This document shows positions 1 to 44,319 of a stretch of DNA of 44,386 bases, piece by piece (the first letter of the stretch is position 1; each line of letters begins with the position of its first letter). The position numbers were made by a program, and so were the translations under genes. The stretch comes from a virus. A model generated the notes under the pieces. The model was not told the origin of the DNA. It saw only the letters and a list, made by a program, of their open reading frames with translations, and ran no database searches. The stretch lies in IMG/VR virus record IMGVR_UViG_3300005253_000543, positions 1 through 44,386 of that record. One strand, written 5' to 3'.

Positions 1-25
1 GCTCGGAGATGTGTATAAGAGACAG
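1..25. other. Residual Nextera/Tn5 sequencing adapter
   Basis: The first 25 bases match the 3' end of the Illumina Nextera read-2 adapter, and bases 7-25 are the 19-bp Tn5 mosaic end (AGATGTGTATAAGAGACAG). This is library DNA, not phage. Homology to the other end of the window begins at base 26, directly after it, so the true sequence starts there. Confidence 0.97.
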
Positions 26-1075
26 GGCTAGTGGAGGCGGCGGGGCCTCACCCTTCGACCGACTCCCATCCATCAACTGAACGTCTGGAACGCTTTTCCC
101 TTCGACCTCAGAGAAGGTTTTGTTGCCGATAGACTTGATTCCCATGATGTTGAGATATTTTCCGTTCCTCTGTACGACCAAATTTGCCTGTTCGCCCTGG
201 CCCGCTTTGAGATAGGGCCACAAGTCTTTTTTCCAGCAAGTGCATTCCCAATTCCCGTACTCCACCTTGACGTAGTTCCCCTTGCGGTAGATGACTTCCT
301 GATAGCGGTTAATCTTTGCCAGTGTGCCCGCAGGCGGGTCGGTTGGTATCGGTGGGTCTGCCGGCGGGTCAGGCGGCGGCGCCGGCGGTAGAGCGGGCGC
401 AGAGAGTGGCCGGCCTTCTGTGTCGGTGACTTCGCGGCCTTCCGGGGAAAGATCGTCGTCCGCCTGCATCATTTCCTCGTCGGTGTAGATGTCCGCTAGG
501 TCGGGGTAGGCTTTCCGCAGGGCAAGAGCTTCGGCACACTTAGCCAGCATGTGCCTGGGCATCTTCCGCCACATGAAGGCTTCGGGGGAGTTAATGTCGG
601 CTGGCGAGAACTCCTGCCAAAAGGCTGTCGCCACGGTCGGTTGTTCGACGCCCTTCTTCCACAACTTGATGCGGGCCAGGATGGGGATTTTTTTGTCTGT
701 TCCGTACTCATAGTCCGCTTCGCCTATCGAACCGAAGTCCTTGTGGCTCCTTGCGGCCATCGCCCGATAGCCGTCAATCCCAATCTGAATAGCCATCTTG
801 CCTTTGCGCTTGACACAGTGAAGTTGTCGGGTGAAGGGGTCGAGCTTGTGCTTCTTTGCGACGAACATGAACAGGGCAAATTCGTCGGGAGTGGTGTCTT
901 TGGCAACCGTGCGCTGCAAGAGAGCTATCTGTTCCGGGCGAAGTCCATGCTCTCGCCTTGCGAGTTGTTCCGGCAAAACTCCCGCGACAAGCGCGGTCGA
1001 AGTCTGCCGCTTGCGCTTGGGTGGCTTGCGCTTCGTGCGCCGTTTGCGCTTTGGTTTGCCTTTCTTAGACCGCAT
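26..1075 (-). CDS. bet: Bet/RecT-family recombinase, 3'-truncated second version
   Basis: Reading the minus strand from the ATG at 1073-1075 gives an uninterrupted frame to the contig edge, beginning MRSKKGKPKRKRRT and containing the same single-strand annealing domain as the complete gene at 43021-44319 (EFALFMFVAKKHKLDPFTRQ, then IQIGIDGYRAMAA). About 80 C-terminal residues are missing because the contig ends, and the frame runs on into the adapter. The start overlaps the stop of the coiled-coil gene upstream by 11 bases. It differs from the other copy by scattered substitutions and by two compensating codon-sized indels, one near residue 33 and one in the proline-rich linker. That indicates natural divergence, not read error. 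It is probably the same genomic locus in another strain, not a true paralogue. Confidence 0.9.
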
Positions 1076-1838
1076 CGACACTCCATACTTCGATCCCAGG
1101 ACAAGCAGCTTCGGCCTTTTTCTTGTCTTTGGCTGCGCGAACCATCCTTCCAATTGCAGCCTCGTCAGCCATCCGGTATGTGCCTGGAATCAAGGCATAA
1201 TTGAGAATGCGAAACTTCCAGTTCGTCCGGCCCTTGATGCCAGCCATCTTTGGGATCGAGGGCTTCACCTTGACCTCTTTGACCTGGGCGGCGGCTTCCG
1301 CCGCATCTTGCGCCGCCCTTACGTCTGCGTCAGCCTGCGCGGTTGCTTCTCTCGAAAGCCTGTTAGCGTCCCGCTTCCCAAATTCGCCAGCCTTGCGCGC
1401 TTGCTCAATTTCTTTTTCCCGCTGCTTGCGCTGGGCTTCGGCGTCACGCTCAGCGGCTATTCGCCCTCTTTCGGCTTCTGCGGCAGCCACTCGGCGGCGG
1501 TCGGCGTTGAGCTTTTCCTGTTCCACTTCCGCAGCCCTGCGCTCCTCTTCACGCCACAGAGAAGCCTTTCCTGATGCAAGCTCAGCGATAGGTGTCACCC
1601 GGTTCACGAAAGCAGCCTTCTGGTTGCGTAGTGTTTCCAAATGCTCGCGCGCCGAGTTGATGCCTGGGTCTAGTACGAAGCCAACCGCCTTGATTTCTTT
1701 CCGCGCATCCAAGGCAATCTGGCAAGCGAGCGTATAAGATTCCTGGTCTCTTACTTGAATCGAGGTTGCTTGCTCGTAGAGGATGGCAAGTCTGCTTTCA
1801 ATTGGCTTTGTATCAATCGGTGTAAGCGTTGTGCTCAT
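1065..1838 (-). CDS. Coiled-coil protein encoded directly upstream of bet
   Basis: A 257-residue protein. Residues 1-75 are probably helical. Residues about 90-185 form a long charged Ala/Arg/Glu coiled coil (WREEERRAAEVEQEKLNADRR onward). The C-terminal 55 residues (KGRTNWKFRI, IPGTYR, CPGIEVWSVDAV) resemble the tail of proteins that often accompany RecT/Bet or ERF genes in phages and whose function is unknown. It is preceded by a GAGGACGG ribosome site, and its stop overlaps the bet start by 11 bases, so the two are likely translationally coupled. A role in recombination is inferred from position. It does not look like a lambda-exonuclease or YqaJ nuclease. Confidence 0.8.
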   Translation of the reverse strand: MSTTLTPIDTKPIESRLAILYEQATSIQVRDQESYTLACQIALDARKEIKAVGFVLDPGINSAREHLETLRNQKAAFVNRVTPIAELASGKASLWREEERRAAEVEQEKLNADRRRVAAAEAERGRIAAERDAEAQRKQREKEIEQARKAGEFGKRDANRLSREATAQADADVRAAQDAAEAAAQVKEVKVKPSIPKMAGIKGRTNWKFRILNYALIPGTYRMADEAAIGRMVRAAKDKKKAEAACPGIEVWSVDAV

Positions 1839-1845
1839 TCCGTCC

Positions 1846-2109
1846 TCACTTCACCACGAAGATTCCTACTAACTTGATGTGGACCGTCTTTCCCCGGCGT
1901 CGCGCCTCAAGCTTCAAGGTTCGGTGGGTTTTGGCAGCGAGATAAAGAGAGCTAGCTAGTTGGATAGATTCAACGGAAACTGGCAACCATTTATCTTTTC
2001 CAAGTTTCTTTACCGCTTCCCATATGGGTATCCAAGAAGCCAGCTTTCCCCTAGGAGCAGGTGCTTCCTTCGATGGCTTACCAATGTCGAAAGGTTGAAC
2101 GATGTTCAT
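1846..2109 (-). CDS. Small protein of unknown function
   Basis: An 87-residue protein starting MNIVQPFDIGKP, basic toward the C-terminus (LEARRRGKTVHIKLVGIFVVK). No family was recognised. Its ATG overlaps the stop of the upstream zinc protein (ATGA), and the next gene follows within eight bases, so it belongs to the compact early operon. The basic, strand-rich tail would suit nucleic-acid binding, but nothing specific supports that. Confidence 0.65.
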   Translation of the reverse strand: MNIVQPFDIGKPSKEAPAPRGKLASWIPIWEAVKKLGKDKWLPVSVESIQLASSLYLAAKTHRTLKLEARRRGKTVHIKLVGIFVVK

Positions 2110-2297
2110 GCCGTTTTCTCCAGTACCTCAGGAAGTTCAGACCAGCAGACCCAGCACACTGTTCCGCCGAAAAGTGTTGTGCGTTTGTCGTTCACAAACA
2201 GAGAGCGCATCACATGGCAGCTCCCGCACCTCTGAGGCGTGAACGCCAGTACAAGGCAGCTACCATCCGGCCCCCAGATGTATTCGACTTCTGCCAT
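2106..2297 (-). CDS. Small cysteine-rich, probably zinc-binding protein
   Basis: A 63-residue protein starting MAEVEYIWGPDGS. Two CxxC pairs (CGSCH and CWVCW) about 30 residues apart are typical of a zinc ribbon. The start was chosen because GGGGAGGG lies just upstream. An earlier in-frame ATG two codons upstream is possible. It overlaps its neighbours by a few bases on both sides. Role unknown. Confidence 0.65.
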   Translation of the reverse strand: MAEVEYIWGPDGSCLVLAFTPQRCGSCHVMRSLFVNDKRTTLFGGTVCWVCWSELPEVLEKTA

Positions 2298-2299
2298 TT

Positions 2300-2521
2300 T
2301 CATCCCTCCCCACAACCGGCCCGGCGTTCCATGTCCCGCTCATGGGCTTCCAGGTCGGGCTGTGTGCAAGTGTGGTGCTCCCGATTGATGTGCATAGTGC
2401 CGTAACCATTTTCGTTTGGCGGACAATGGCATCCTCCGCGCGGATGTGTGGCATAAGAGCCGCAATCAGGGCAGGGGTGCTCTCTCCAAGACCGTAACTT
2501 GTTGTATTCTTCCCTCGTCAT
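2300..2521 (-). CDS. Small Cys/His-rich protein
   Basis: A 73-residue protein, MTREEYNKLRSWREHPCPDC..., with CPDC, CHCPP and HHTC groups that could hold one or two metal ions. The start overlaps the stop of the HTPLPW protein (ATGA), and its own stop falls within the ribosome site of the next gene. No known family was recognised. Confidence 0.6.
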   Translation of the reverse strand: MTREEYNKLRSWREHPCPDCGSYATHPRGGCHCPPNENGYGTMHINREHHTCTQPDLEAHERDMERRAGCGEG

Positions 2522-2964
2522 TCCGCTTTCCCCCCTAGAGCCGCTTCGACTTCGCGGATGGATTCCTCTAGGCGCTTGAATGTTGATGCTTCCCTTGAAT
2601 CAAAGCCCCTGCCATGTCCGAGTAATCCTAAGAGCGCATAAGCATCGCGGGCGGCTCCCAGCAACTCCTCCACCTTCGGGCGGGCGTTGACGGAGGTGAC
2701 GATGAGTTTGGCATTGGCTGAGTTTTGGTCGAGAAAGTCGGAAGAGTCGAATCCCGCCCAATGTACAACCTCTTTCCTGGTGCCAGCCTTCATAATGCAA
2801 AGCACATGCTGGTTTTCAAAAATCTCCCACGGCAACGGCGTATGCTTCGTTTCTCTCATCGCCTCGACCTCTCCAGTTTCTCTTTCAATGGACAGCACAG
2901 CTAGGATTAGAATCAGGCTTAGGCTCACAACCATTGCAGCTACAAAAAACACTTTGCTAAACAT
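2518..2964 (-). CDS. HTPxPW-type phage protein with an N-terminal membrane segment
   Basis: From the ATG at 2962-2964 (after AAGGAG) the 148-residue product begins MFSKVFF, has one strong transmembrane helix (about residues 5-24), and continues into KHTPLPWEIFENQ... NAKLIVTSVNARPKVEELL. That second part is the usual layout of a widespread small phage family that normally begins directly at MxxHTPxPW. The membrane segment is therefore an unusual in-frame extension. An internal ATG before RETKHTPLPW, with GAGG upstream, could also yield the soluble form alone. A related protein is encoded at 41951-42223. Function unknown. Confidence 0.7.
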   Translation of the reverse strand: MFSKVFFVAAMVVSLSLILILAVLSIERETGEVEAMRETKHTPLPWEIFENQHVLCIMKAGTRKEVVHWAGFDSSDFLDQNSANAKLIVTSVNARPKVEELLGAARDAYALLGLLGHGRGFDSREASTFKRLEESIREVEAALGGKAE

Positions 2965-2966
2965 GG

Positions 2967-3116
2967 TCATTTCTCCTTGCTTGGCCCCAGCATTTCGTCT
3001 ATCAGCGGCTTGATGTCCGCGTGCCACACAACGGGGAACAGTAAGCGAATCACGAACCAGCACACAACTCCCCCGCAGACTAGAATCAACTCGAAGATGA
3101 GCAGGTCTAAGAGCAT
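2967..3116 (-). CDS. Small membrane protein (49 residues)
   Basis: A short gene, MLLDLLIFELILVCGGVVCW..., with one or two hydrophobic helices spanning residues 2-31 and a charged tail ending SKEK. The ATG overlaps the stop of the upstream gene, and the AAGGAGAA at its own 3' end serves the next gene, so it fits the operon tightly. It could be a small inner-membrane or lysis-related peptide. No family is assignable. Confidence 0.65.
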   Translation of the reverse strand: MLLDLLIFELILVCGGVVCWFVIRLLFPVVWHADIKPLIDEMLGPSKEK

Positions 3117-3361
3117 CGCTGTCTCACCCTTTTAGCGGTCAGTTCAATGCAAACCGTTCTATTGTCACCATGCCTGGGAATAAAGGTAGCAAGCAGCCGC
3201 CTAAAAAACGTCCTCTCAAAAATGTGCAAATGTCTTGCTTGTTCGCCTTTCTTGGACTTCGGGCCTTTGAAATAACAGCGAAACAAGTCTCCGTTGGCTC
3301 GATAGTGTGCGCTTTCTATCCACACCCTCTGCTTATTGACCTGCTGCCTACTTCTTTTCAC
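3107..3361 (-). CDS. Basic small protein, GTG start
   Basis: An 84-residue basic protein read from a GTG just inside the end of the upstream membrane-protein gene, with GAGAGG immediately before it. Sequence includes QRVWIESAHYRANGDLFRCY and FRRLLATFIPRHGDNRT. A longer frame exists to a TTG at 3439, but that part overlaps the upstream gene in another frame and was rejected as the start. Function unknown. Confidence 0.55.
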   Translation of the reverse strand: MKRSRQQVNKQRVWIESAHYRANGDLFRCYFKGPKSKKGEQARHLHIFERTFFRRLLATFIPRHGDNRTVCIELTAKRVRQRCS

Positions 3362-3497
3362 TACCTCTCTCCCATGTCCGGCGGTGCGTGCGCCGTTCCT
3401 CTTCCGCCAGCATCTTTTTGTGCGCTCGGAAAGCCCCAATCAGAATCCAAGCCGAAAGAAGTGCAGCCACTAAAAGCACCCAGCCAAAGAAGTCCAT
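3348..3497 (-). CDS. Small single-span membrane protein (49 residues)
   Basis: MDFFGWVLLVAALLSAWILI followed by a very basic and charged cytoplasmic-type tail (HKKMLAEEERRTHRR). One clear transmembrane helix covers residues 5-22. It starts directly after the stop of the gene at 3501-3821 and overlaps the next gene. Topology is like that of many phage accessory membrane peptides. No function can be given. Confidence 0.65.
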   Translation of the reverse strand: MDFFGWVLLVAALLSAWILIGAFRAHKKMLAEEERRTHRRTWERGSEKK

Positions 3498-3500
3498 CGC

Positions 3501-3821
3501 TCACGCTCCCTTGAGAGGTACGGGGGCATCGGTGGAAAGCGACACCCCCGCAGTCGTGTATGGACTGCCCTTGTCTCGGTCGGAGGGGCCAGGGGCAGTC
3601 TGGTGAGAAGTCAACCTAGTAAAGATAGCGTAGAGAGAATCTGCCGAAACCCTAATGTGCCTGTTGCGTATATCCCTGGTCGGTGGTTCAAGAACTGTCG
3701 CCCTGAAAGTGCAGCCGTTTCTTCTACACCTACCAGCAAAACCGTTAAGCTTTCGCCGTCCACCATCAAAGGCAAACTTCTTTGGCGTGTATTCCATGTG
3801 GTGCAGGAAGCGGCAGTTCAT
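3501..3821 (-). CDS. Hypothetical protein with duplicated leader motif
   Basis: A 106-residue protein beginning MNCRFLHHMEYTPKKF. The first codons match the beginning of the upstream gene (MSFRFLYHWRMKW) at DNA level over about 27 bases, so the two starts share a duplicated leader. The middle (GRCRRNGCTFRATVLEPPTRDIRNRHIRVSADSL) looks like a folded basic domain. An internal ATG (MEYTPKK) could be the real start if the leader is regulatory. Function unknown. Confidence 0.55.
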   Translation of the reverse strand: MNCRFLHHMEYTPKKFAFDGGRRKLNGFAGRCRRNGCTFRATVLEPPTRDIRNRHIRVSADSLYAIFTRLTSHQTAPGPSDRDKGSPYTTAGVSLSTDAPVPLKGA

Positions 3822-3824
3822 TTC

Positions 3825-4190
3825 TCAGGCCCTTTCGGTCCTCTCTTTTTTTCGGTAACGCGCGCGAATGAGTTGCACCATATTTATTGCATTTTCTTCC
3901 GTCTCTACAATAATGGCGCACATCTCATTCTCCTGGCGCCTCGCTTCTTGAATCTTCGCGTCGAGTTGCAGCCCATCCCTTAACTTAACTCGTAGTCCCT
4001 CCAAGAGATTCTTGTTTTGATTCATCAAGACATCATAAAACGAGTCGTAATAACTAAGTTTACCGACCGCTTTTTCTAGTGTGTAGACTGCGTGTTCTAA
4101 CCTTTCTAGTAGCACTGCCTGTTTCTGTTGCCGTTGCTGACGTTTGGTAAGCCACTTCATTCGCCAGTGGTACAGGAAGCGGAAGCTCAT
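3825..4190 (-). CDS. Coiled-coil early protein
   Basis: A 121-residue, mostly helical protein. After the MSFRFLYHW leader it has a basic Gln-rich segment (RQQRQQKQ) and long amphipathic helices (LERLEHAVYTLEKAVGKL, then KIQEARRQENEMCAIIVETEENA). Its ATG overlaps the stop of the RHH regulator gene. A second ATG lies at 4160. No family recognised. Confidence 0.6.
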   Translation of the reverse strand: MSFRFLYHWRMKWLTKRQQRQQKQAVLLERLEHAVYTLEKAVGKLSYYDSFYDVLMNQNKNLLEGLRVKLRDGLQLDAKIQEARRQENEMCAIIVETEENAINMVQLIRARYRKKERTERA

Positions 4191-4191
4191 T

Positions 4192-4365
4192 TCAAACAGC
4201 CTTTGCAGGCTTGTTGTCCGTGCGCCTATCTAATTCTTGACGGGCAAGCGTGCGGAACCACTCGCTTAGGTTCATTCGTTGTCTGCGTGCCTGCCCGATG
4301 AACCGCCTACGTTCTCCGCGCCGCAATCGGATATTCACTTGGCTTCGTTTTGATTGGGTAAGCAT
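4192..4365 (-). CDS. Ribbon-helix-helix (Arc/CopG-like) DNA-binding protein
   Basis: From ATG 4363-4365 the product (57 residues) reads MLTQSKRSQVNIRLRRGERRRF..., with a short beta strand (SQVNIRLR) followed by two helices ending NLSEWFRTLARQELDRR. That is the layout of RHH repressors, which bind as dimers of dimers to tandem operators. It is the first gene of the early block, and upstream lie two identical 8-bp repeats one helical turn apart, so autoregulation is likely (inference). No strong Shine-Dalgarno site precedes it. Translation may be leaderless from the promoter proposed upstream. Confidence 0.7.
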   Translation of the reverse strand: MLTQSKRSQVNIRLRRGERRRFIGQARRQRMNLSEWFRTLARQELDRRTDNKPAKAV

Positions 4366-4374
4366 GATAGACGC

Positions 4375-4403
4375 ACCATAGACGCTAGACAAATAAAAAG
4401 CAA
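4375..4403 (-). promoter_or_regulatory. Candidate early promoter
   Basis: On the minus strand TTGCTT (4403-4398), a 17-base spacer and TATGGT (4380-4375) form a moderate sigma-70-type promoter. The predicted start point is about 4368, only a few bases before the RHH start codon. It is located where the early operon must begin, but the match is imperfect. Confidence 0.35.
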
Positions 4404-4406
4404 GCG

Positions 4407-4425
4407 TTTTAATGTGATTTTAATG
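4407..4425. promoter_or_regulatory. Tandem operator-like direct repeat
   Basis: TTTTAATG occurs at 4407-4414 and again at 4418-4425, an 11-base period that places both on the same face of the helix. It lies just upstream of the proposed -35 of the RHH gene. RHH repressors typically bind such tandem short sites, so this is the likely operator. Confidence 0.45.
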
Positions 4426-4452
4426 CGGCGTGTTTTCTTATACTTGGAGGGA

Positions 4453-4481
4453 GGGGCCGGGGAGTGGCGCTTCCCGACCCC
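4453..4481. terminator. Strong GC hairpin, possible late-operon terminator
   Basis: GGGGCCGGGGAG and CTTCCCGACCCC pair around a five-base loop with only two imperfect positions. It lies just after the last late gene (ends 4497) and before the early promoter, where a terminator is expected. No T-run follows on either strand, so termination is inferred from position and stem strength only. Confidence 0.4.
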
Positions 4482-4496
4482 TTGTGAGAGAGGATA

Positions 4497-4814
4497 CTAC
4501 GTTTTGGGAACTACACCTTTCAGGCGGGCAACAGCCATTTCAATCAAGAGATTCAGCAAGGAATCTTTGACTTCGATTCCACCGTCTTTCGCCGCTTGCT
4601 TGATGCGCTTGAAGGCCGCACCTTTCTTCTGCGAGTTGGTTAGGTTGCCAGCCTCCAACTCACGGACTACCGCCCAAGCCACCTTGCCCAATTTGGTCTT
4701 GAGCATAGCCCGGGCTGCTGCGATCAGCTTGTTCAGGGCTGACTTTCCAAACATTCCGACTGCGACCTTCTTGAAGAACCTCCAGAGTTTTCCGAACAAC
4801 TTCTTTACTCCCAT
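4497..4814 (-). CDS. Small basic amphipathic protein, possible lysis-cassette member
   Basis: A 105-residue basic protein with an amphipathic cationic N-terminus (MGVKKLFGKLWRFFKKVAVG). The C-terminal half (KGAAFKRIKQAAKDGGIEVKDSLLNLLIEMAVARLKG) resembles the C-terminal pattern of LL-H type phage holins. No classical transmembrane helix is obvious. It is the last gene of the late operon, downstream of the endolysin, which suits lysis or membrane association. The function is a guess. Confidence 0.55.
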   Translation of the reverse strand: MGVKKLFGKLWRFFKKVAVGMFGKSALNKLIAAARAMLKTKLGKVAWAVVRELEAGNLTNSQKKGAAFKRIKQAAKDGGIEVKDSLLNLLIEMAVARLKGVVPKT

Positions 4815-4824
4815 GACACTCTCC

Positions 4825-5517
4825 TTATTTTACGATCCCTTGGAAGAAGCTGCCGACTGAGCCGATCAGTTGCAGCAAGAACAACCCTGCACGCTTCGCT
4901 AGGTTGGCTGGCTTAGTCATCTGCTTTACCTTCTTCTCAATATGGGCCGTGGTTTTGTTGATGTTCTCCGCTGCGCCAGCAACCTCCTGAGCGATTTTCT
5001 CAGTGGATTGCAAGGTAGCGGGAATGCTTGGATCTCCGGTGATGCGGGCGGCGTTTGCTGAGGCTTCGGCTAGGTTCTTCAACACTGGCTGGAGTGCTTG
5101 TACCGCAGCCGATACTTCCTCAGCCACTTCCTGCATGTTGGCATCGGTGTTTTCGAGTGACTTTGCCAGTTGGGGGAGAATATCAGTGCGGAAGCTGGCG
5201 AGTGTCTTTTCAGCCTCGCGCAGTACACGGCCTGCCTGTCGGCTGTTCTTGGCCCAATACTGCCGCTGTTCCTGGGAGGCTTTGGCCCATTCGTCCGAAG
5301 CCTGGGCTATCCGCATGAGAGTGGCATCGGTGTGCTCCAGTGTCCCACTCAGGCCGGCGCGCAGATCCAGCAGCAACTCCTCAAACTGCTGAACGCCGCC
5401 TGTGCTCTGATGCAGGACAACCGTGGTTTGCACCATCGCGGCGCCCACAGACAGGGCGGCTAGGGTGGTAGCCACTTGCAGCGAGAGCTTGATGACCTTT
5501 GCGATCTTGTCGAACAC
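4825..5517 (-). CDS. Membrane-anchored coiled-coil protein, candidate lysis or envelope protein
   Basis: A 230-residue protein from a GTG start directly abutting the upstream stop. An N-terminal hydrophobic helix (about residues 12-34, LSLQVATTLAALSVGAAMVQTT) is followed by a long helical region rich in Ala/Glu/Gln with chemoreceptor-like heptads (residues about 45-195), and a second hydrophobic stretch at the C-terminus (AGLFLLQLIGSVGSFFQGIV). Both ends could insert in the inner membrane. Following the endolysin, it may be holin- or spanin-like, but the length is unusual for those families. Confidence 0.6.
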   Translation of the reverse strand: MFDKIAKVIKLSLQVATTLAALSVGAAMVQTTVVLHQSTGGVQQFEELLLDLRAGLSGTLEHTDATLMRIAQASDEWAKASQEQRQYWAKNSRQAGRVLREAEKTLASFRTDILPQLAKSLENTDANMQEVAEEVSAAVQALQPVLKNLAEASANAARITGDPSIPATLQSTEKIAQEVAGAAENINKTTAHIEKKVKQMTKPANLAKRAGLFLLQLIGSVGSFFQGIVK

Positions 5518-5703
5518 TTACTTCCCTTTCAGCTTCGGGTACTTCTCTGTTATGCCTTTGCGGAAATTACCTGCCAGTGCGTTCAAAAACTTCACCAGAA
5601 CCTTGCCCCACATCGGCTCGATTTCTTTCGGTTCTGGCAGCGACTCGACCAAGGCATTCAATCCGTAGTACAGCCCGATAACCACCATAGTTTCTGTTTC
5701 CAT
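5518..5703 (-). CDS. Small protein of the lysis region
   Basis: A 61-residue protein, METETMVVIGLYYGLNALVESLPEP..., preceded by a strong AGGAGG site. The first 20 residues are moderately hydrophobic and the rest is helical and basic (FRKGITEKYPKLKGK). It lies between the endolysin and the membrane-anchored protein. A holin role is possible but not supported by a clear membrane span. Confidence 0.55.
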   Translation of the reverse strand: METETMVVIGLYYGLNALVESLPEPKEIEPMWGKVLVKFLNALAGNFRKGITEKYPKLKGK

Positions 5704-5712
5704 GACAGCCTC

Positions 5713-6099
5713 CTATGCTTTTGTCCACGGCCCTTGAAAGTGAGCCATATCCTTTTTCGTCCACCGTCCTCCCCAAACTAAGCCGAGGGATTCTCCAATC
5801 TTCCCAATTCTTTCCCACACTGGATCGTTGGAATCCCACTGGAGTTTGTCCGGGCCGTGAAGTTGGAACATAGCGAAAGGCGCGACATCTATGGCCTCAG
5901 CACGCATCTCTGGGGGTTGCGGCAGGTGCTTGGAGTTCATAGTCCAAGAGACGCCCTTCTTGATATTCTCTTTCTGCTCCTCCTCCGTCCGAAGAGTGTC
6001 CAGAACCATCAAAGGAATCTGGGCTTCGGTGCATCGGGCTAGAAATTCAATCACTAGCGGTCGGAAGCGCGTGCTCAGGTCTGAAAGGCGACGGCTCAT
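5713..6099 (-). CDS. M15-type endolysin (L-Ala-D-Glu peptidase)
   Basis: A 128-residue protein with the D-Ala-D-Ala carboxypeptidase/endolysin fold of peptidase family M15. It has DTLRTEEEQ (helix start), SKHLPQPPEMRAEAIDVAP (the zinc ligands His and Asp) and, near the end, WGGRWTKKDMAHFQ (catalytic acid and third zinc-ligand His). Length matches single-domain phage endolysins such as that of T5. It would cut peptidoglycan stem peptides at lysis. No signal peptide is visible, so release through a holin is expected. It lies directly after the tailspike gene. Confidence 0.9.
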   Translation of the reverse strand: MSRRLSDLSTRFRPLVIEFLARCTEAQIPLMVLDTLRTEEEQKENIKKGVSWTMNSKHLPQPPEMRAEAIDVAPFAMFQLHGPDKLQWDSNDPVWERIGKIGESLGLVWGGRWTKKDMAHFQGPWTKA

Positions 6100-8334
6100 T
6101 TAGTTGGCCTCTGTGGTGGTGTTAGCCAGAGGTTGAGAGACGAGAATGTAAATCCTCGCCTGCCCTGCTGTAGCATTAACATGGTTGTCGCCGGTTAGGT
6201 CGCATTGGATTTCGATTGTCGCGGCTGCGACGGCCATGTAGGGAGCAAACTTGTCGGTGGAATCAAACAGCAGCGCGCCCTTACCCCCGCTTGCGGTGGC
6301 ATCGTGTAACTCGTACACGGTCGCTGCGGCGAAGAAATTGTCATCCAGCGTTAGATCATTGGCCGCCCCTCCGTTCGTTCCGACCGAGCAGACCGCCGCC
6401 GAAATAGAACCCCCCGACCAGCCCGTAACCACCGTTCCCACGACATCGTGAATCATCGTGTTGGCTGGGAGCGTCCAGAGAGTGAAGGTGTCCGCCGTCG
6501 CCCCAGCCGTCATATCGCCGAAGTCCACCTGCTTGAAAATCCAGCGGGGCAAGTTGGAAAGGTCGCCCTCAAGACTGTTCATTCGAGCCTGAGCAACCGG
6601 ATGAAAAGAGGCTGCCGTGTCCCCGATATTAGGGCCATAGACAGAGTTGGCTCCGTTTTGTCTGAGTAACGCCCCACCGGAATTTCCGGTCAGTATGTTC
6701 CCAACGATGTAGTTTGAGACTGGGCTTGCGCCAGAGTTTTCCTCTATCCCGTGGTCGCCACTGGAATCTATAGATACATTTCCAACAATCGTGTTGAAAC
6801 TTGGTTCTGTGGTAGCCAGGATTAGTTCAATACCACTCTTGGTGGAAGACCGAATGACGTTCCCGACGATTGAATTGCTCTGACCGCCCGATACAAGAAT
6901 CCCTTGTAGCGTCGAGGAAAGAATCGTGTTTCCTTGGATTGTGCATCTATCTCCTCCCACCGTGATGCCTGTACTTCCAGGGGTGTCGATTACGTTTCCA
7001 ATGATTGAAATTCGTAGGTCATTAGTACCCGTTTGTATCCCGCGCAAAGTTGGACTTGTTATACTGTTGTTGGAAATAGTCACGTCCGTTGACGCGTTGG
7101 AGGTTGTATTGACAATCCCATTTTGCGAAACCGAACTTATTACGTTAGTAGAGATGCTAACGCCAGAAACAGCGGAAAAAACTATTCCTTCCGCTGTCGA
7201 ACGGATTGTGTTTCCATTCGCCGTGACTTCTTCGGTGGTTCCTACCCCGCCTGTAATGGCAATACCAGAGTTTCCAGATGAGCTGCCAGAACCATTGATT
7301 ACGTTTCCCTCAATGGTGACCTCTCTAATCACACTAGAGGCGTTGTTTGGTTCTAGGTCAATCCCATGAAGTGCCGAACCTGTGATTTGATTGTCGGAAA
7401 TTATTACCCGTTCGCCCTCGGTCACGGCAATGCCGTTTCGCCCTGCATTTGTAATGGTATTATTACGAATTGAATTTCGCAGCGGTTTCACTGTCACAGT
7501 AGAACTTGCAGAAATCAGAATGCCATCTCCGACAGAATCGGCCGACCACACGCCGTCTATCACTAAATCCACTACCGCCTTGAAAAGCATTGAGGGACGA
7601 CTGGTATCGCCATTAGAAGCGGAGGAATCAAACTTTAGGTTTCTGACGGTGATGTTGGTATTTCTTGCTCCGTCGGTAGCTGGATTTGGCGTGTCATTTT
7701 CCAGCAAAGAGTTATTTCCAAAGCTGGCGCTTGCCTTGATAATCGAAGCGGCCCCCGTACCCATCAATGTGCTATTGGAAGGCATTGTGATCGTAGATGT
7801 GATCGTGAAGGTTCCAGGAGGAACGATTACCAGTCCTCCACCAGCCGGCAAGCCGTCTAGTGCTCCCTGAATGGTGGTGTATTCAGTTCCATCGACGTAA
7901 CGGATTTCGTTGATTCTTCCTGCTGTTATGGTTCCAGTAAAGGTTTGCGCTGTGGCCCAAGTGTTCGTCAAGGTCAGAATGGTCGTGACGTTATCCACCG
8001 ACCATTGCAGCACGTTTGAGGAGTTGTGGACCTCGATTGTGTAAGACTCATCAGAGGTCAGCCAGATTCCCGCGAAACCCCCTGCATCTAGGAGTACCGG
8101 ATTGGCATTGGGAGTTCCGCCCCCTGAATCGGTGTAGGTTGCTTGATTTGTAGTTGTCAGGCTGATGTAGGTGTGGACGTGGCCGTTGGCGAGAGGGTTT
8201 CCTGACGTGTCGAGGAATTGAATCCTAGGAACGGGAATAAGTTGTTTGGTCTGAGCCTGCGCCGGCAAGATTACCAGCAACAAAGCCAGGAACAAGAAGG
8301 CCAACAAAAAGGCTAACCACAGAACTCGTTTCAT
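6100..8334 (-). CDS. Tailspike with beta-helix and N-terminal signal peptide
   Basis: A 744-residue protein. Residues 1-28 are a textbook Sec signal peptide (MKRVLWLAFLLAFLFLALLL... PAQAQ). Residues about 35-115 (IQFLDTSGNPLANGHVHTY, YTDSGGG, LLDAGGFAGIWL, YTIEVHNSSNVLQWSVDNV) match the pattern of the P22-type tailspike head-binding domain. Residues about 150-570 are a parallel beta-helix with repeated NxIxxSxxxGIxV turns (ITNAGRNGIAV, GNTILSSTLQGILV), typical of host-polysaccharide depolymerases. The C-terminal 150 residues form a separate beta-rich domain. It starts four bases inside the end of the polyvalent-protein gene. A signal peptide on a tailspike is highly unusual. Confidence 0.88.
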   Translation of the reverse strand: MKRVLWLAFLLAFLFLALLLVILPAQAQTKQLIPVPRIQFLDTSGNPLANGHVHTYISLTTTNQATYTDSGGGTPNANPVLLDAGGFAGIWLTSDESYTIEVHNSSNVLQWSVDNVTTILTLTNTWATAQTFTGTITAGRINEIRYVDGTEYTTIQGALDGLPAGGGLVIVPPGTFTITSTITMPSNSTLMGTGAASIIKASASFGNNSLLENDTPNPATDGARNTNITVRNLKFDSSASNGDTSRPSMLFKAVVDLVIDGVWSADSVGDGILISASSTVTVKPLRNSIRNNTITNAGRNGIAVTEGERVIISDNQITGSALHGIDLEPNNASSVIREVTIEGNVINGSGSSSGNSGIAITGGVGTTEEVTANGNTIRSTAEGIVFSAVSGVSISTNVISSVSQNGIVNTTSNASTDVTISNNSITSPTLRGIQTGTNDLRISIIGNVIDTPGSTGITVGGDRCTIQGNTILSSTLQGILVSGGQSNSIVGNVIRSSTKSGIELILATTEPSFNTIVGNVSIDSSGDHGIEENSGASPVSNYIVGNILTGNSGGALLRQNGANSVYGPNIGDTAASFHPVAQARMNSLEGDLSNLPRWIFKQVDFGDMTAGATADTFTLWTLPANTMIHDVVGTVVTGWSGGSISAAVCSVGTNGGAANDLTLDDNFFAAATVYELHDATASGGKGALLFDSTDKFAPYMAVAAATIEIQCDLTGDNHVNATAGQARIYILVSQPLANTTTEAN

Positions 8335-12953: not shown

Positions 12954-12955
12954 AA

Positions 12956-14059
12956 TTATTCTACTTTCCGATAGCCTTGTTTAATGGCGTCCTGAAGTTG
13001 CGCCCTTGGTATTTTCCCTCTCACCCCATCTGGAGAAATGACGGAAACTGTGTCGGCTAGTTTGCCTTGTTCTGGAGCCTTTCCGCTCAGGACAGCATCG
13101 TAGTCTTCGTTGGCCTTCCGCAGAAGTTCTTCCATTCGAGCAGCTTGTTCTTTTGTCGGATCGCCTGGGAATCCAATCTGGGCCTTGATTACCTCCATTT
13201 CTCGCTTGAACCGTGCGTTGATGGAATCAAGTTGCCGCTTTTCCTCCCCGGTCGCTTGGCGATATTTCTCTTGCAAGCCAATCCACTGTCTTGCCAGTCT
13301 TTGTTGTTTGGGATCACCAGAAGCGAAGGCAGCGAATGGAGTAGTCGCCTTTTTCCCCCATGCTGCAATTTCCTTTCGCGCTTGAATCTCAACCTTTCCG
13401 TTTTTCTTTAGGCCCTTGGCTTCTAGCCATGCGGGATAAACAGCTTGAAACTCTCGCTCACTTGCCGGTTTTTCCATTTCGCGCTGGTGCCGACGAGTTT
13501 CCTTGTCCACACGCCGCTGCCTTTCAGCCGCAATCTGATCCTTTGCCGATGTGGAAGATAGGGCACCAACCCGCATGAACTCATCGCCTGGATACTGCTC
13601 TGGCGCCTCTTGCGCCCTTATCACGCCACTCTGGATCAACTGCCCTCGTACCTGTGCGTAGGCTTGCGTGCGCTGCTGCTCTGACACACCAAGCACCGCC
13701 TGAAAAGCACCCCCGATAGCATCATTCCTCTTGGCGGCATTGTCCAGTGCGGCCCCATCTAAATCTTCCAACGCCTTTCTCGACTTCGTGATGGAATCTC
13801 TGTACTGCGAAATCAACTGCGGCGACACACCAGCCCTGGTAACTAGTTCGATGGTTTTCCGTGGGTCGCCCTGCGCCTCCATGTAGGCTTTGCGGAATAT
13901 CTGCTGGTCTTTCTGCGCCTGTTGCTGTTGCTCGAGTTTTAGTTGCCCCGCTTGCTGGCCCTGCAGGAGACTCTTCAAATGAACCGCCTTCGTCATTTGG
14001 TCCAGCGGGCTCTTAAACTGTGGGGTGCGTACCCCCAACGCGGCTAGTGGGATTCCCAT
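12956..14059 (-). CDS. Putative internal virion/ejection protein
   Basis: A 367-residue, mostly helical, Gln-rich protein. Coiled-coil segments lie at about residues 35-60 and 175-300 (KDQIAAERQRRVDKETRRHQ, then LDSINARFKREMEV). The C-terminus (VISPDGVRGKIPRAQLQDAIKQGYRKV) is a short strand-rich motif seen at the ends of several phage ejection proteins. It lies between two other presumptive ejection genes, as P22 genes 7, 20 and 16 do. Its ATG follows AAGGAG within the end of the upstream gene. Direct homology to a named P22 protein is not evident. Confidence 0.65.
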   Translation of the reverse strand: MGIPLAALGVRTPQFKSPLDQMTKAVHLKSLLQGQQAGQLKLEQQQQAQKDQQIFRKAYMEAQGDPRKTIELVTRAGVSPQLISQYRDSITKSRKALEDLDGAALDNAAKRNDAIGGAFQAVLGVSEQQRTQAYAQVRGQLIQSGVIRAQEAPEQYPGDEFMRVGALSSTSAKDQIAAERQRRVDKETRRHQREMEKPASEREFQAVYPAWLEAKGLKKNGKVEIQARKEIAAWGKKATTPFAAFASGDPKQQRLARQWIGLQEKYRQATGEEKRQLDSINARFKREMEVIKAQIGFPGDPTKEQAARMEELLRKANEDYDAVLSGKAPEQGKLADTVSVISPDGVRGKIPRAQLQDAIKQGYRKVE

Positions 14060-14060
14060 A

Positions 14061-17957: not shown

Positions 17958-17959
17958 TG

Positions 17960-17968
17960 TGCTATACT
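17960..17968 (+). promoter_or_regulatory. Extended -10 promoter of the tRNA-like element
   Basis: TGCTATACT is an excellent extended -10 motif (TGnTATACT). No good -35 is present, which is tolerated by extended -10 promoters. The expected start point, seven to eight bases on, falls at 17975-17976, exactly the first G of the permuted tRNA-like RNA. It lies between the gp10-like start codon and the RNA. Confidence 0.5.
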
Positions 17969-26811: not shown

Positions 26812-27128
26812 ATCTGATCACTCTCGATTTGTTGAACCGTGATCGAGCCTGACGAGGTGGCGATTCCCCCCACTACCTCACCGGGGAAATAGGTATTCGC
26901 TTCTTGGCTTACGCCGCTGCTCGGTTTACTCTTGGTAAAAACCGCCGGTGTTCCTTTCACGACCTTGGCTGGGGTTGAACTCCCGGTGGGGTCGTATTGA
27001 AGCAAGTTGGCGGTGGGGGGAGTATCAGAGTCGTAATCCTCTTTCACGCTAACGCGACGGCAAGGACTATTCGCAACTACGTCAATCTTGTTGGTGTCCA
27101 GCGCGTAGGTTGTAATGCGATCAGCCAC
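26808..27128 (-). CDS. Small beta-rich virion-region protein, GTG start
   Basis: A 106-residue protein read from a GTG seven bases before the portal stop, with GGAGGGAAAA before it. Sequence: [33 protein letters not shown]... [44 protein letters not shown]. Alternating strands and the gene position after the portal suggest a minor head or decoration protein. No family was recognised. Confidence 0.6.
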
Positions 27129-29193
27129 TTTTCCCTCCTGCGCCAACTGGTTTGTCCTCGTTCAGCAATTTCTGCCGTGCGGCAACGTCAGCGTTGACCG
27201 CCTTCAAGTTCTCCAGCGCGCCTTGCATTCCTGCGGCAACCTGAGCCAAAGCAACATCAGTCTCACCCTTTTGTAGGGCGATTCTTTCCTTTGACTCCAA
27301 TTCCCACTTTTTCATGTCCTTGACTGCATCCTGCTTCACCCGCTCGTTCTTAATCATCCCGGCCTGTTGCTGCACCATCTTGTTTGCCTGTTCAAGCAAC
27401 TGGCCTTGTTGCTGCAACTGCATTTGGGCCTGCTGCAATTTTGCCTGCGGGTTTTCGTCGTCGGCATCTTCTACACCTGGTGGCAGCATTCTCTTCAACC
27501 GCGCAGCAATAGTTTTCGCTCCCGGCCAATCCATTGCGCCCGCGATCAAGTCTCCAATGAAAGCCGCAGCTTGCGGAAAGACTTTGAGGAAGTCCAGCAT
27601 GGAAGCTACACCCTCTTGCCGCTTGGACTGGTAGGACGGGCCGACCGAGATTGAAATGTCGTAGGTGCCCACCTTCACATCGAATACTTTGTCTATCCCG
27701 GGTGAAACCATGCCTTGCGCTGCTGCTTGTTGTTCTTGTCCATTGTGAATTATTACGTGGTCGATGCTGGCATCGGGATTGACAATTCTCTGGATTCTTG
27801 CTCGGTCGTAAATCTTAGGAATCAAGTCCAAGATAATCCGGCCACCAAAACGAATTGACCGACTTAGGTTGTCGGAGTAATTCAGTGAGGTTATGTCGGC
27901 TGCTCTTTGTCGGGCTAGGATGGCTTTTCCTGATTGTTCTGGTCCGCGTGCGCCCAAAGAGGCGTTGTAAATCCCTATGGTTGCCTGCAAGTCGCCGGCC
28001 GCCATCCCAATCATCTGTGCCATTGCCTGAATCGGTGTCTCAGCTACTTGCCGCTGTGGTGGCGGAAGCGCCTTGCCACCTACCTCAAGAATCTTGTACT
28101 GCAAGACCGCAGTGTTTTTCCGGTTGGACTCGGCCCATTCCAGTTCGTGGTTCTCTATTTGTCCCTCGGCGGCAATGAAGGGAGCCTTTGGGGCTAGTGC
28201 GATTGCCTCGGTTGCAGCCGAGATCCAATAATTATATTGGCGTTGGGGATCTTTGGCCCCGCGCACCATGCCGGAAAGATGCCGCACTCCATCTACATCT
28301 ATGTCGTCACCCAGCACCGGAATAATCGGAATCCACTTTCCGGGCCACTCTTTTTCTTCCAGTATGTCCACCGCACTAATCTTCGCCCAGCGCACCCGAG
28401 TGCGGGTTCTTTCCACCTGGGCTACTGCCTGTTCTTCTTCCGGCAGTTGCTCAACCCAGGATTCATCCTGCAACTGGTAGAGGGTGTACTTCTCTTGCTC
28501 CAGGTAGAAATACTCAGCCACACGGATGATTTCTCTTGTGATCCAACCGGGAGCGCGGTTCCCAACCGAGGAAAAGTCAGTCAGAGAAGAGGCTGCGGCA
28601 GTAGGGTATTGCTGCTTGAAAACGTCCGATCCCATATCCTCAATGACGAAACACCAGCGGGCATCGGAATAATCTGGTTTCTTGTGGTTGGGATCGAAGT
28701 ACACCGTAAAAGGATTTTTGATGCGGTCAAACTTGATCTCCTGGTAATTGGATTCTTCCTCGATGTAGTCGGTGATAATCCGGTAGTATCCGAACCCGAT
28801 CCGCACCATCATATCGAAAGCGTGGTCGATGGCGATGGAAGCCTCGCTGTTGATTTCAATGTGCCGGATAATTCCCTGAATGATCTCAGCCGTCTTGACG
28901 GTTGCGCCATTGCCAACCGGATTTACCTGAATGGCTGGACGCTCAGCTCTCTGCTCGTTGGTTATCTTGCGAATGAATTGCGGCATCCGGTTCATGGTCA
29001 AACAAGGTCGGCCATCAGCCTCCCGGTCGGCTTTCACCATGTTCGGCCATTGCTCACCCACCGAAAATTTCAGGTCGTCGAGCGATTCGTTTCTGACCCT
29101 GTTTTCAGTTTCCGAAGCAAGTTTGAATCTTCGCTGCGCTTGTTCCAGAAAACTCTCGGTGCGGTCGTGAGATTTCTGTTCGTCCTCAGTCAT
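27121..29193 (-). CDS. Portal protein, P22 gp1 family
   Basis: A 690-residue protein starting [43 protein letters not shown], the usual opening of P22-like portals, followed by [26 protein letters not shown] and [23 protein letters not shown]. The stem/wing region includes [37 protein letters not shown]. The C-terminal 110 residues are Gln-rich coiled coil, matching the helical barrel of P22 portal. The ATG at 29191-29193 was preferred over an upstream TTG because it overlaps the GroES-like stop in the manner of its neighbours. Confidence 0.92.
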
Positions 29194-29449
29194 TGAACAC
29201 AACCCGAATATCGGCCTCTTGGAAAATGACTACCTTGTTCTCCAAATCCATATCGACGTACTCCCCGATCAAAACTGTTTCCCCCACTTTTACCCCGTCA
29301 ACCTTTGGCCCAACTGCAAGGACTTTGCATCTGTAGTTTTTCCGACTCCCGGCAGGAGTCCAAATCATCGAACCATCGGGTTCGGGAAGGCGCCGGCCTA
29401 CCACGCGATTCCCCAGCGGCCTCAATCTGGTTTCGCGCAGCTCACACAC
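29186..29449 (-). CDS. GroES-like (Cpn10) co-chaperonin
   Basis: An 87-residue protein from a GTG start. [25 protein letters not shown] matches the first strands of Cpn10 (consensus RPLxDRVVV... GGIxxP). [48 protein letters not shown] gives the GxVxAVGxG, VxxGDxVL and (R/E)EADILAV blocks. The mobile loop is present but short (PEPDGSMIW). It directly precedes and overlaps the portal gene, suggesting a role in folding portal or coat, like T4 gp31, though that is inference. Confidence 0.8.
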
Positions 29450-30911: not shown

Positions 30912-31573
30912 TACTGGTAACTTTCCTGTAGGATTTCAAAGCCTGTCTGGATTCGACTACCGAAGGGAATTTCGTCTGTGAGAACTACAGGCTCATCCGC
31001 AACCTCTGGCAAGTCTGGGATCTCTGGAATCCTGACTTGGACGTGCGGTTCCCAAGGCTCAGAGAAGTAAATCTCCCAAATCGCATTTAACTCGGATGAA
31101 TTACCAACTCTTTCGGGTAAGCCAATCTGTGCGTGAAAAATCTGACACAGGACTTTGTCTAATGTCCAGCTTTTAGGTGTTTGCCGTCTCCAAAGAGTTG
31201 GTAATTCCAATCCAAACTCTTTTGTGAACCATTGCTTCCACAACCCCAGCTTCGTGAGGTTTCTCTTTGGCGCTGTAATCCAACTTTTTTCCTTCTGCAT
31301 CACTACGGGAACAGTGACACTCGGGATCGCTCTAGGCTTAGATTTCCTAGCTAATCGGGAGGAAGTTTCTACTACGTCGGGTTCCAGTCGGGTTTCTATG
31401 ATTGGTGGCGTTGCGGCATCGGTCTGGGCTATCTGCTGCGCCTCTGTGATGATTTCATGGTATTTAGCCTCTAGTTCTGCGTAGAAGTCTTTTATGTCAA
31501 GTTGCTCCTCTTCTCGCGTGCGTATGAGTTTCCACCCGCCGGGGATGCGAACCACTTTTCCTCTAGCCATCAT
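30911..31573 (-). CDS. Unknown protein directly after terL
   Basis: A 220-residue protein beginning MMARGKVVRIPGGWKLIRTREEEQLDIKDFYAELEAKYHEIITEAQQIAQ. A helical N-terminal part is followed by a basic middle (SRLARKSKPRAIPSV) and a Trp-rich segment (LGLWKQWFTKEFGLELPTLWRRQTPKSWTLDK). The C-terminus is acidic and Pro-rich. It overlaps the terL stop (TAATG). No known family; position suggests a packaging or head-assembly accessory. Confidence 0.55.
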   Translation of the reverse strand: MMARGKVVRIPGGWKLIRTREEEQLDIKDFYAELEAKYHEIITEAQQIAQTDAATPPIIETRLEPDVVETSSRLARKSKPRAIPSVTVPVVMQKEKSWITAPKRNLTKLGLWKQWFTKEFGLELPTLWRRQTPKSWTLDKVLCQIFHAQIGLPERVGNSSELNAIWEIYFSEPWEPHVQVRIPEIPDLPEVADEPVVLTDEIPFGSRIQTGFEILQESYQ

Positions 31574-33054
31574 TAGGTCATCCAGTTCTGAGCACTCTGG
31601 TCAGGATGGACGAACACTCGCTTGGGCTTTGGGCCTGGGGGCGCCACCTTGGGCGCAAACGTCATGGCAGCCATATCGCCACAATCAGGCGAACTCAACC
31701 CGCGCTTCTTCATATCCGCCTTCTTCTCGAGCAAAATTTGATTCTTTCGGCTGTAGGTGTACTCCGGGCCGGTCAAATCAGCCGCCAGCTCGGGATCGTC
31801 GGGAATGTCCGCCCCTCCCATCAGCCAGTCCCGCATCAACCCCCAAACCTCTGCCCGCCGGTTGAAATACTTTGTCGCGTTATTCGCCTTCTGTGCCCCC
31901 TTGAACTCGAACAACCGACGCCCAAAACCTCGAAATCTTATCTGGTCAACCACCCCGGCCCCTAACCCATCCCCATCCACTACCGTCGCGTCCGGGCTTA
32001 ACTCCTCCATAAAAGCTATCACCCGCATCGCCACCTCAACCGTATCCAACCCTCGCAATTTTTTCAGAATTACCAGCTTCCGTCCCTGTCTCCACCCAAT
32101 TACCGTCTGATCGTCCCCAAACCGCGCCACATCCACTGCCAAAATTTTAGCCAGATGCTCATACCCCCTCGCCTCCTCCTTCCTCGCCCGCTCTACCGCG
32201 TCCGACGGTATGTACTGCGTGCTCCCTACCCGCGGAAACTCCCCCTTTACCCAAATCCTTACGTGATCTGAATCTTCACCGTAATCCAATACTTGCTGGT
32301 TAAGCTCCTTCTTGTTAGTTCCTTCAACCCGGCGACTGTCAATTTGATCGGTTTGCCATCTGTGTTTGTACTTGCCGAAGCACTCACGGAAGCGGCCGGC
32401 GGTGCGGGTGGGGTTGCCGAAGGCCAACCAGATGATTTCGGTGTCCTCGTCGGTCAGTGCGCCTTCGGTTACTTCCCAGATAGGGTCAGCGATGGCGCTG
32501 GCTTCGTCGAAGATGACTAGGATGCGCTTTCGCTTGTTGTGAAGGCCGGCGAAGGCTTCGGGGTTCTTCTCGTTCCAGGTGATGCGGTCGCAGCGCCAGA
32601 GCCGCTTGTGCTCTGGGACGTTGAAGGTGATTGACTCCGCTTCGACACTGAACCAATGGGAGTTAATCGCCAGCCTGAACCACTTGCAGACCTCCGGCCA
32701 AGTCTTTGTCTTGAGTTGCGGGTCGGTGTTGGCTGTGAGAACTACTTTGCAACCCTCTGCGGTACTCATGGCCCACTCGATCAGCATTCCGACCAGAGCA
32801 CTCTTACCGATGCCCTTACCGCTTGCTACGGCAATCAGGCAGGGTTGGTGGCGAGTCTGAGGGTCTTTCAGGTGAGAGCCTATCTTGTTGAGGATGCCTT
32901 CCTGCCAGTCCCGGGCGCCGGCCTCTCCTTCCAGCTCACCAGTGCCCCAGGGGAAGAACGCCTTGACGTACCCGGCCGGGTCGTGCTGATAGCCAGCTGC
33001 GTCTAGGATCAACTCCCGCTCTGCTTCGGCCTGAGTCAAGGTGGCTTGCGTCAT
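31573..33054 (-). CDS. terL: Terminase large subunit
   Basis: A 493-residue packaging motor. Residues 78-85 (SGKGIGKS) form the Walker A ATPase loop and residues about 178-185 (ILVIFDEA) Walker B with its catalytic Glu. Residues 210-219 (LAFGNPTRTA) are the coupling motif. The C-terminal nuclease has Asp at about 308 (LAVDVARFGDD), VVDGDGLGAGVVDQ at 358-371 and SSPDCGDMAAM near residue 465, giving the acidic metal-binding triad. It cuts and translocates DNA at the portal. Order TerS, 62-residue protein, TerL is tight, with short gaps. Confidence 0.95.
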   Translation of the reverse strand: MTQATLTQAEAERELILDAAGYQHDPAGYVKAFFPWGTGELEGEAGARDWQEGILNKIGSHLKDPQTRHQPCLIAVASGKGIGKSALVGMLIEWAMSTAEGCKVVLTANTDPQLKTKTWPEVCKWFRLAINSHWFSVEAESITFNVPEHKRLWRCDRITWNEKNPEAFAGLHNKRKRILVIFDEASAIADPIWEVTEGALTDEDTEIIWLAFGNPTRTAGRFRECFGKYKHRWQTDQIDSRRVEGTNKKELNQQVLDYGEDSDHVRIWVKGEFPRVGSTQYIPSDAVERARKEEARGYEHLAKILAVDVARFGDDQTVIGWRQGRKLVILKKLRGLDTVEVAMRVIAFMEELSPDATVVDGDGLGAGVVDQIRFRGFGRRLFEFKGAQKANNATKYFNRRAEVWGLMRDWLMGGADIPDDPELAADLTGPEYTYSRKNQILLEKKADMKKRGLSSPDCGDMAAMTFAPKVAPPGPKPKRVFVHPDQSAQNWMT

Positions 33055-42515: not shown

Positions 42516-43011
42516 TTAAGCCGCCACACACTTGATTCCGTAAAACTCCATCGCCTTTCTGACCTTCCCCATTGGGAAACCGATGCGATTCATTTCTTGG
42601 AGATAGCCGATGATATTGGTTCTGTTGCACAGCCTGTCCTCAGCCCTTCTCTTCTTGGGGTGGCATTTCTGGCACAGCGCGACGAGATTTTCTCTGGCGT
42701 TTGGATCGCCGAGCCTGTGTTCTTCTATCCATCGTGCTGGCAAAATATGATCCGCTGGATGGGCGACAGACCTCAAACCCGTACTTGTGAGCTTGGGAGG
42801 ACATGATTTTGCCCCACAGATGGCGCAGGGCTGCCCTGAAACGGCCTTTCTTGCCCTCTGCCACCCTGCCCCTCTGCTGGGCGCGGAGCCGGGGCGCTTT
42901 CGCCTTGCCTTCCGCTTCAAGCTCCGCGAGATTGAGCAAGTGCGACGACACTCCGAGCACCGGGCAGCCCCCCATGATAGAAACCTCCTTCGGCATATCC
43001 TTCTGCGGCAT
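42516..43011 (-). pseudogene. HNH nuclease-like gene split by a +1 frameshift
   Basis: Two starts with strong ribosome sites (ATG 43011 after GGAGG; ATG 42975 after AAGGAGG) open a frame reading ...LNLAELEAEGKAKAPRLRAQQRGR. The next frame takes over near 42864 with WQRARKAVSGQPCAICGAKSC and the HNH core HPADHILPARWIEEHRLGDPNARENLVALCQKCHPKK, to 42516. The core has both CxxC/CxxCH zinc pairs and the DH catalytic motif. The shift falls at a G-rich run (CCC or CCCC on the plus strand, 42864-42872). It may be a sequence error, strain mutation or real slippage. The gene directly follows bet. Confidence 0.65.
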
Positions 43012-43020
43012 CGGCGCCTC

Positions 43021-44319
43021 CTAGGCCACTGTTGGCGCTTCATCCCTTTCTTCAAACTCGATCCCTTGGTCCTCACAAACCGCTTCCAAGGTCGGAACCC
43101 AAGCGGCGGGAATCACATACAACTTGCGTTTCTCATCGCGCCTCCCCGCCATTCCGTCAATAATCTTGTCCTTGAGCGTTACGGTGTCGCCAAAAACCTC
43201 TGCCTCATCACCTTTGAATCGAATGACGACTTTCTTGGAGTTCGTTGTCGCTGGTCGCGCGACCGCATGGGCCAGTGGAGGCGGCGGGGCCTCGCCCTTC
43301 GCCCGACTCCCATCCATCAATTGAACGTCTGGAACGCTTTTACCTTCGACCTCAGAAAAGGTTTGGTTGCCGATAGACTTGATTCCCATGATGTTGAGAT
43401 AGTTCCCGTTCCTTTGCACGATGAGATTGGACTGTTCACCGACACCTTGTTGTAGGTAGGGCCACAAGTCTTTTTTCCAGCAGGTACAGTCCCAATTCCC
43501 GTACTGCACCTTCGTGTAGGCGCCTTTGCGGGTCTTGATTTCCCTGTAGTCGTTAATCTTTGCTAGGGTGCCCTCGGGCGGGTCGGTTGGCTTGGGCGAG
43601 TCTGCCGGCGGGTCAGGAGGCGGCGGCGCAGGCGGGAGAGCGGGCGCTGAGAGTGGTCGGCCTTCTAGGTCTGTGACTTCGCGGCCTTCGGGCGAAAGGT
43701 CGTCATCGGCCTGCATCATTTCCTCGTCGGTGTAGATGTCCGCCAGGTCGGGGTAGGCTTTCCGCAACGCAAGAGCTTCGGCACACTTAGCCAGCATGTG
43801 CCTGGGCATCTTCCTCCACATGAAGGCTTCGGGGGAGTTAATGTCGGCCGGCGAGAACTCCTGCCAAAAGGCTGTCGCCACGGTCGGTTGTTCGACGCCC
43901 TTCTTCCATAGTTTGATGCGGGCCAAGATCGGGGTTTTCTTGTCCACCCCGTACTCATAGTCCGCTTCGCTTATCGAACCGAAGTCCTTGTGGCTCCTTG
44001 CGGCCATCGCCCGGTAGCCGTCAATCCCAATCTGAATAGCCATCTTGCCTTTGCGCTTGACACAGTGGAGTTGCCGCGTGAAGGGGTCGAGCTTGTGCTT
44101 CCTGGCTACCAGCATGAACAGGGCAAATTCGTCGTTGGTAGTGTCCTTGGCAACGGTTCGTTTCAGGAGTGCTACCTGCTCTGGGCGAAGCCCATGCTCC
44201 CGTCTTGCGATTGGCGCGGCTACCACAGGGACAAGCGCGGTGGAAGTCTGCCGCTTGCGCTTTGGGGGCTTCCGCTGCGTGCGCCGCTTGCGCTTTAGTT
44301 TGGCCTTCTTAGACCGCAT
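43021..44319 (-). CDS. bet: Bet/RecT-family single-strand annealing recombinase
   Basis: A 432-residue protein. A very basic N-terminus (1-25) precedes the Bet domain at about 45-205: DEFALFMLVARKHKLDPFTRQLHCVKRKGKMAIQIGIDGYRAMAARSHKDFG, AFMWRKMPRHMLAKCAEALALRKAYPDLADIYTDEEM. A Pro-rich linker follows, then a C-terminal extension of about 190 residues with a Trp/Cys-bearing beta domain (YGNWDCTCWKKDLWPYL). That extension makes it longer than lambda Beta. It pairs complementary strands in recombination. No lambda-type exonuclease partner was found. This is the complete copy of the gene also present at 26-1075. Confidence 0.93.
   Translation of the reverse strand: MRSKKAKLKRKRRTQRKPPKRKRQTSTALVPVVAAPIARREHGLRPEQVALLKRTVAKDTTNDEFALFMLVARKHKLDPFTRQLHCVKRKGKMAIQIGIDGYRAMAARSHKDFGSISEADYEYGVDKKTPILARIKLWKKGVEQPTVATAFWQEFSPADINSPEAFMWRKMPRHMLAKCAEALALRKAYPDLADIYTDEEMMQADDDLSPEGREVTDLEGRPLSAPALPPAPPPPDPPADSPKPTDPPEGTLAKINDYREIKTRKGAYTKVQYGNWDCTCWKKDLWPYLQQGVGEQSNLIVQRNGNYLNIMGIKSIGNQTFSEVEGKSVPDVQLMDGSRAKGEAPPPPLAHAVARPATTNSKKVVIRFKGDEAEVFGDTVTLKDKIIDGMAGRRDEKRKLYVIPAAWVPTLEAVCEDQGIEFEERDEAPTVA

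Follow-up and report, generated by a model that had tools for sequence, protein, structure and literature searches.

The window, by which we mean the whole stretch of 44,386 nt of viral DNA analysed here, is very probably a linearised circular map of about 43.2 kb (43,244 bases), broken where related strains carry different alleles. Its two ends hold diverged versions of the same locus, comprising bet, a gene for a RecT/Bet annealing protein, and at least the end of U, the gene upstream of bet. The presence of two bet genes in the record is probably an assembly effect, because an assembler would have followed two alleles out of one core. The allele difference behind the doubling looks real, judged from the two sequences, and is of an ordinary kind. 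Read in this way, the record most likely describes one bet and a genome whose size is near 43.2 kb, not 44.4 kb; its first 25 bases are adapter, and its ends are uninformative about packaging.

The two ends of the window match each other over their whole shared length. BLASTN (E limit 1e-3) found one off-diagonal self-match, 25-1142 against 43269-44386, with 86.53% identity over 1121 columns, 145 mismatches, 3 gap openings and an E value of 0.0. In a MAFFT alignment, the ends are identical in 966 of 1120 columns, with 148 mismatches (in 1114 ungapped columns) and two 3-nt gaps. The left copy has its gap at 371, in the Pro-rich linker of bet; that of the right copy falls at left-coordinate 975, in the N-terminal region of bet. 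Since each gap compensates for the other, the offset at either end is 43,244. An earlier, sequence-only reading had paired 26-1142 with 43270-44386 at this fixed offset, with gene order and overlap preserved and two compensating codon-sized indels in bet, and both alignments bear out its coordinates, MAFFT recovering each indel. Both copies contain the same two genes, and in both the stop of U lies 11 nt inside bet (U at 1065-1838 and bet start at 1075 on the left; U stop from 44309 and bet start at 44319 on the right). The codon phase is unbroken where the left copy is cut. On the left the homology is interrupted by an adapter, and on the right the contig simply ends; in neither place has the similarity faded.

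Features of the window, with their positions, strands and the matches on which each rests
Feature	Position	Strand	Evidence
Untrimmed Nextera read-2 (Tn5ME-B) adapter, non-phage	1..25	+	identical to the final 25 bases of the oligonucleotide
Left bet allele (RecT/Bet annealing protein), 350 codons, 3' end cut at adapter	26..1075	-	phrog_2780 E 5.3e-39
Mosaic tract of left bet, nearer to G001 than to the right allele	146..305	-	153/160 vs 121/160 bases
U, gene upstream of bet, 257 aa, overlapping the bet start by 11 nt	1065..1838	-	ORF; relatives at 6 loci
P22-like portal protein	27121..29202	-	PF16510 E 7.1e-173, phrog_156 E 9e-135
Terminase large subunit	31573..33054	-	phrog_2 E 1e-34
HNH endonuclease gene	42516..43076	-	phrog_144 E 4.5e-11, PF01844 E 0.00014
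Right bet allele, complete, 432 aa	43021..44319	-	phrog_2780 E 2.2e-39, PF03837 RecT E 7.5e-22
Diverged second U version, last codons only, cut by contig end	44309..44386	-	translation ends like left U

The left end of the window is a product of library preparation. Its first 25 bases are those of the Nextera Tn5ME-B oligonucleotide, for which we used the sequence given in an excerpt of PMC4248319, and the homology starts at 26 because phage sequence starts there. The window has the 19-base core of the adapter at one place, and none of 100 shuffles has it even when 3 mismatches are tolerated; among the 149 loci compared it is found in one, the window's own start. We infer that the left end is a read-through at the end of a library fragment; being a library adapter, it therefore cannot be read as a virion end. 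The sequence-only reading overlooked these bases, and the public viral record still carries the untrimmed Nextera Tn5 adapter.

The ends of the contig also provide no information about packaging. When a single molecule is terminally redundant, both copies of the repeat derive from one concatemer and so are identical. The P22-type portal would suit the terminal redundancy of a single headful-packaged molecule, but that explanation of the overlap can be given practically no weight, with 148 of the 1114 ungapped columns differing and one end being a library adapter; we rejected it because the ends have diverged. There is no exact terminal repeat either, the ends being 86% identical and the left one carrying adapter. 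Of the proposal of P22-like headful packaging made from the sequence alone, the part that stands is the portal, which belongs to the P22-like family (PF16510) found in P22-type headful phages; the use of the ends as a sign of circular permutation by headful packaging does not, since diverged ends cannot be the terminal redundancy of one molecule. The window resembles P22-portal phages in having a P22_portal family protein and, by Pfam, a Terminase_2 small subunit. It differs from the records of such phages in that its terminase large subunit is 47-48% identical to those of Pseudomonas phage AF, Escherichia phage phiv142-3 and the like (among the best 15 of 187 records), and in that megablast of 1-20000 and 20001-44386 against 50,697 phage records gave no match. 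The terminase large subunit had no match to solved structures at E 0.1.

Both versions of bet look like working genes under purifying selection, as far as substitution patterns can tell. Both copies belong to the RecT/Bet family, by PHROG for each and by Pfam for the right copy, to which that search was confined, and the right copy matches a solved structure, Recombination protein bet (7ujl, E 6.5e-4). The alleles are identical at 311 of 349 compared residues. Over the 349 shared codons, dN is 0.066 and dS is 0.453 (dN/dS about 0.15), and the differences fall mostly at third codon positions (33, 19 and 81 at positions 1, 2 and 3). Sequencing error would not give such a pattern, and the earlier view that the differences between the ends are real variants is upheld. 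The differences are clustered along bet, with 0 of 5000 permutations as uneven. In the protein encoded at 43021-44319, the N-terminus is rich in Lys/Arg, the linker is rich in Pro, and a C-terminal region extends past the RecT core; this last region recurs, at 40-41%, in two related loci (L144 and L147). We suspect an OB fold at the C-terminus, a prediction left unproved because the AlphaFold2 model of the right copy is poor (mean pLDDT 46.8, residues 194-392 below 50).

Purifying selection on both copies is also what would be expected of two working paralogues, and the linear contig taken at face value does show two bet copies. The contig could then be a fragment of a longer genome with a true tandem of diverged bet genes and at least part of U. 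We consider this unlikely. A single bet was found in 53 of 53 related loci, with flanks of at most 6 kb per side examined, shorter where a contig ended; because the 53 include apparent near-copies (L118/L119, and L131-L133 with the same identities), none of which was dropped, they are not a count of independent phages. A single bet was likewise found in each of the three whole records that have one (two of them also among the 53), and six other whole records had no bet match. Moreover, both copies are cut by contig ends, and the gene order of relatives fits a single locus.

The order of genes in relatives suggests that the right and left ends of the window belong together. When the map is closed, the order across the join is U, bet, HNH, with about 1.2 kb between U and the HNH gene. 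A search with U gave six loci, L144-L149, of which L146 is in the same contig as another locus, L016. In each of four of the six, a single RecT/Bet ORF comes directly after U in the same orientation, and Pfam RecT was confirmed in L144 and L145. L016 carries, all on one strand, first U, then another ORF and then an HNH homologue. G001 (IMGVR_UViG_3300005253_000649), a contig that begins inside bet, has bet before HNH, with about 780 nt between them, and further early genes in the window's order at lower identity. Because the gene order beside U agrees with the closed map, we place the two ends together.

Several observations count against a single circular map. No match to U was found in any of G001-G003 (0 of 3), two of the six U loci (L146 and L149) have after U another ORF that is not recognisably RecT/Bet, and the spacing between U and HNH is 4.8 kb in L016 versus the roughly 1.2 kb of the closed window. 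The protein that replaces bet beside U (L016 10326-11816; L149 9078-9731) has a C-terminal part with a counterpart in the bet ORFs at the remaining four loci, and it may represent an unrecognised family of annealing proteins. Its L016 copy had no PHROG or Pfam match, and a profile comparison with bet aligned just 57 columns at a probability of 52%, a weak match that is no proof of kinship. U itself matched no PHROG family at 1e-3, no Pfam family at the cut-off and no protein in the phage collection.

Scans of viral contigs for exact patterns, which may miss very near records, found no record with the stretch common to both bet copies and none with a stretch of U. No viral record beyond the window was thus found with the exact bet or U stretches, and hence neither allele was found on a contig that crosses the junction. 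When genome contigs were scanned with three bet proteins, 80 pattern matches came up, none of them a relative. The circular map with two strains at its closure, as first proposed, is supported, short of proof, by the gene order of relatives, by the single bet in relatives and by a strain breakpoint near bet.

That breakpoint comes from a second record, IMGVR_UViG_3300005663_000149 (G004, one of the six whole records with no bet match), which is identical to the window over 11289-42539 (31,251 bases, 0 mismatches). It leaves the window at 42540, inside the HNH gene and about 480 bases from bet. Beyond this point it encodes a different protein of 71 aa that is weakly HNH-like (phrog_826 E 7.9e-4; L086 15228-15559) and has no Pfam match at the cut-off. 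The 71-aa protein and the HNH protein of the window both end in the residues GIKCVAA. Strains with exchanged segments would give just such a departure, although it is possible that the tail of G004 is itself a mis-join. By comparison of these contigs, the HNH-bet segment appears as a site at which near-identical phages differ.

The left bet allele is best read as a recombinant of two types, because its likeness differs between neighbouring tracts. At 77-145, it matches the right allele at 65 of 69 bases and G001 at 59 of 69. At 146-305, this is reversed, with 153 of 160 bases matching G001 and 121 of 160 matching the right allele; the switch lies near position 146. The other genes of G001 resemble those of the window only remotely, and the tract that favours G001 might also indicate a chimeric contig made from two phages that are unrelated, or at least more distant than strains of one phage. 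This is somewhat less probable still than a true tandem. The identical contig covers 11289-42539, a 1540-aa reading frame (8331-12953) crosses 11289 unbroken, and between the two bet alleles there is 86% identity across all the sequence they share.

Most likely, the window derives instead from a mixture of closely related phages whose portal is of P22 type, and in which both alleles presumably coexisted. The strains would have shared an identical core and differed in their alleles of a short segment that spans the end of U, bet and the HNH gene. An assembler working from short reads could have left the core via one allele at the right end and via another at the left end, where the sequence ran into the library adapter, and it would have been unable to join the ends because the alleles differ by 13-14%. 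Homologous recombination among related phages could have swapped the alleles themselves, and either the annealing protein that the phage encodes or the HNH gene next to bet may have assisted.

A contig broken by strain differences is an ordinary finding, since viral assemblies of this kind are well described. Strain microdiversity and genomic islands are known to break short-read viral assemblies, according to the sections of PMC6487183 used here. As in the assemblies described in those sections, the phages here appear to form a population that is nearly identical apart from local variable segments, and contigs end at those segments. In contrast to them, the window is a contig close to complete, and its two ends overlap as different alleles, one of them ending in adapter. 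The window also resembles two circular assemblies, G002 (a relative with an exact end repeat of 127 nt and one bet) and G005 (an exact 123 nt), in that its ends overlap and so imply a circular map. However, whereas those repeats are exact, the overlap of the window is 86% identical and about 1.1 kb long.

Recombination functions encoded by phages could contribute to exchange at this locus. Rad52-like recombinases promote mosaic exchange between diverged phages, as set out in a portion of PMC3945230. The phages treated in that portion have mosaic diverged segments in otherwise closely alike genomes, and the window, like them, encodes a RecT/Bet protein. Unlike the cases in that portion, the mosaic tract of the window sits in the recombinase gene itself, and is known from sequence comparison. 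The HNH gene has the HNH domain of a homing endonuclease, by both phrog_144 and PF01844, and it is possible that the exchange is driven by it. We speculate, with considerable doubt, that the HNH-bet segment could be an active locus of exchange, at which phages identical over 31 kb swap HNH-type genes plus adjoining tracts of bet, with HNH cleavage, annealing by the phage's protein or the two together as the driving force. A gene for recombination would then be among the most recombined parts of the genome. A narrow literature search for HNH-linked exchange of alleles in phages turned up one paper, a review of restriction enzymes, and this does not show that such exchange has gone unreported.

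Other genes of the window were noted in passing. The only viral relative found for the 1540-aa protein is in the identical contig, and residues 974-1499 of this protein match phrog_9854, a family of unknown function. A gene like that for phosphoadenosine phosphosulfate reductase (39768-40631, phrog_424) lies near a DNA methyltransferase-like gene (41071-41904, phrog_1008), and 6100-8334 encodes a tail-spike-like protein (phrog_2234, E 6.6e-27).
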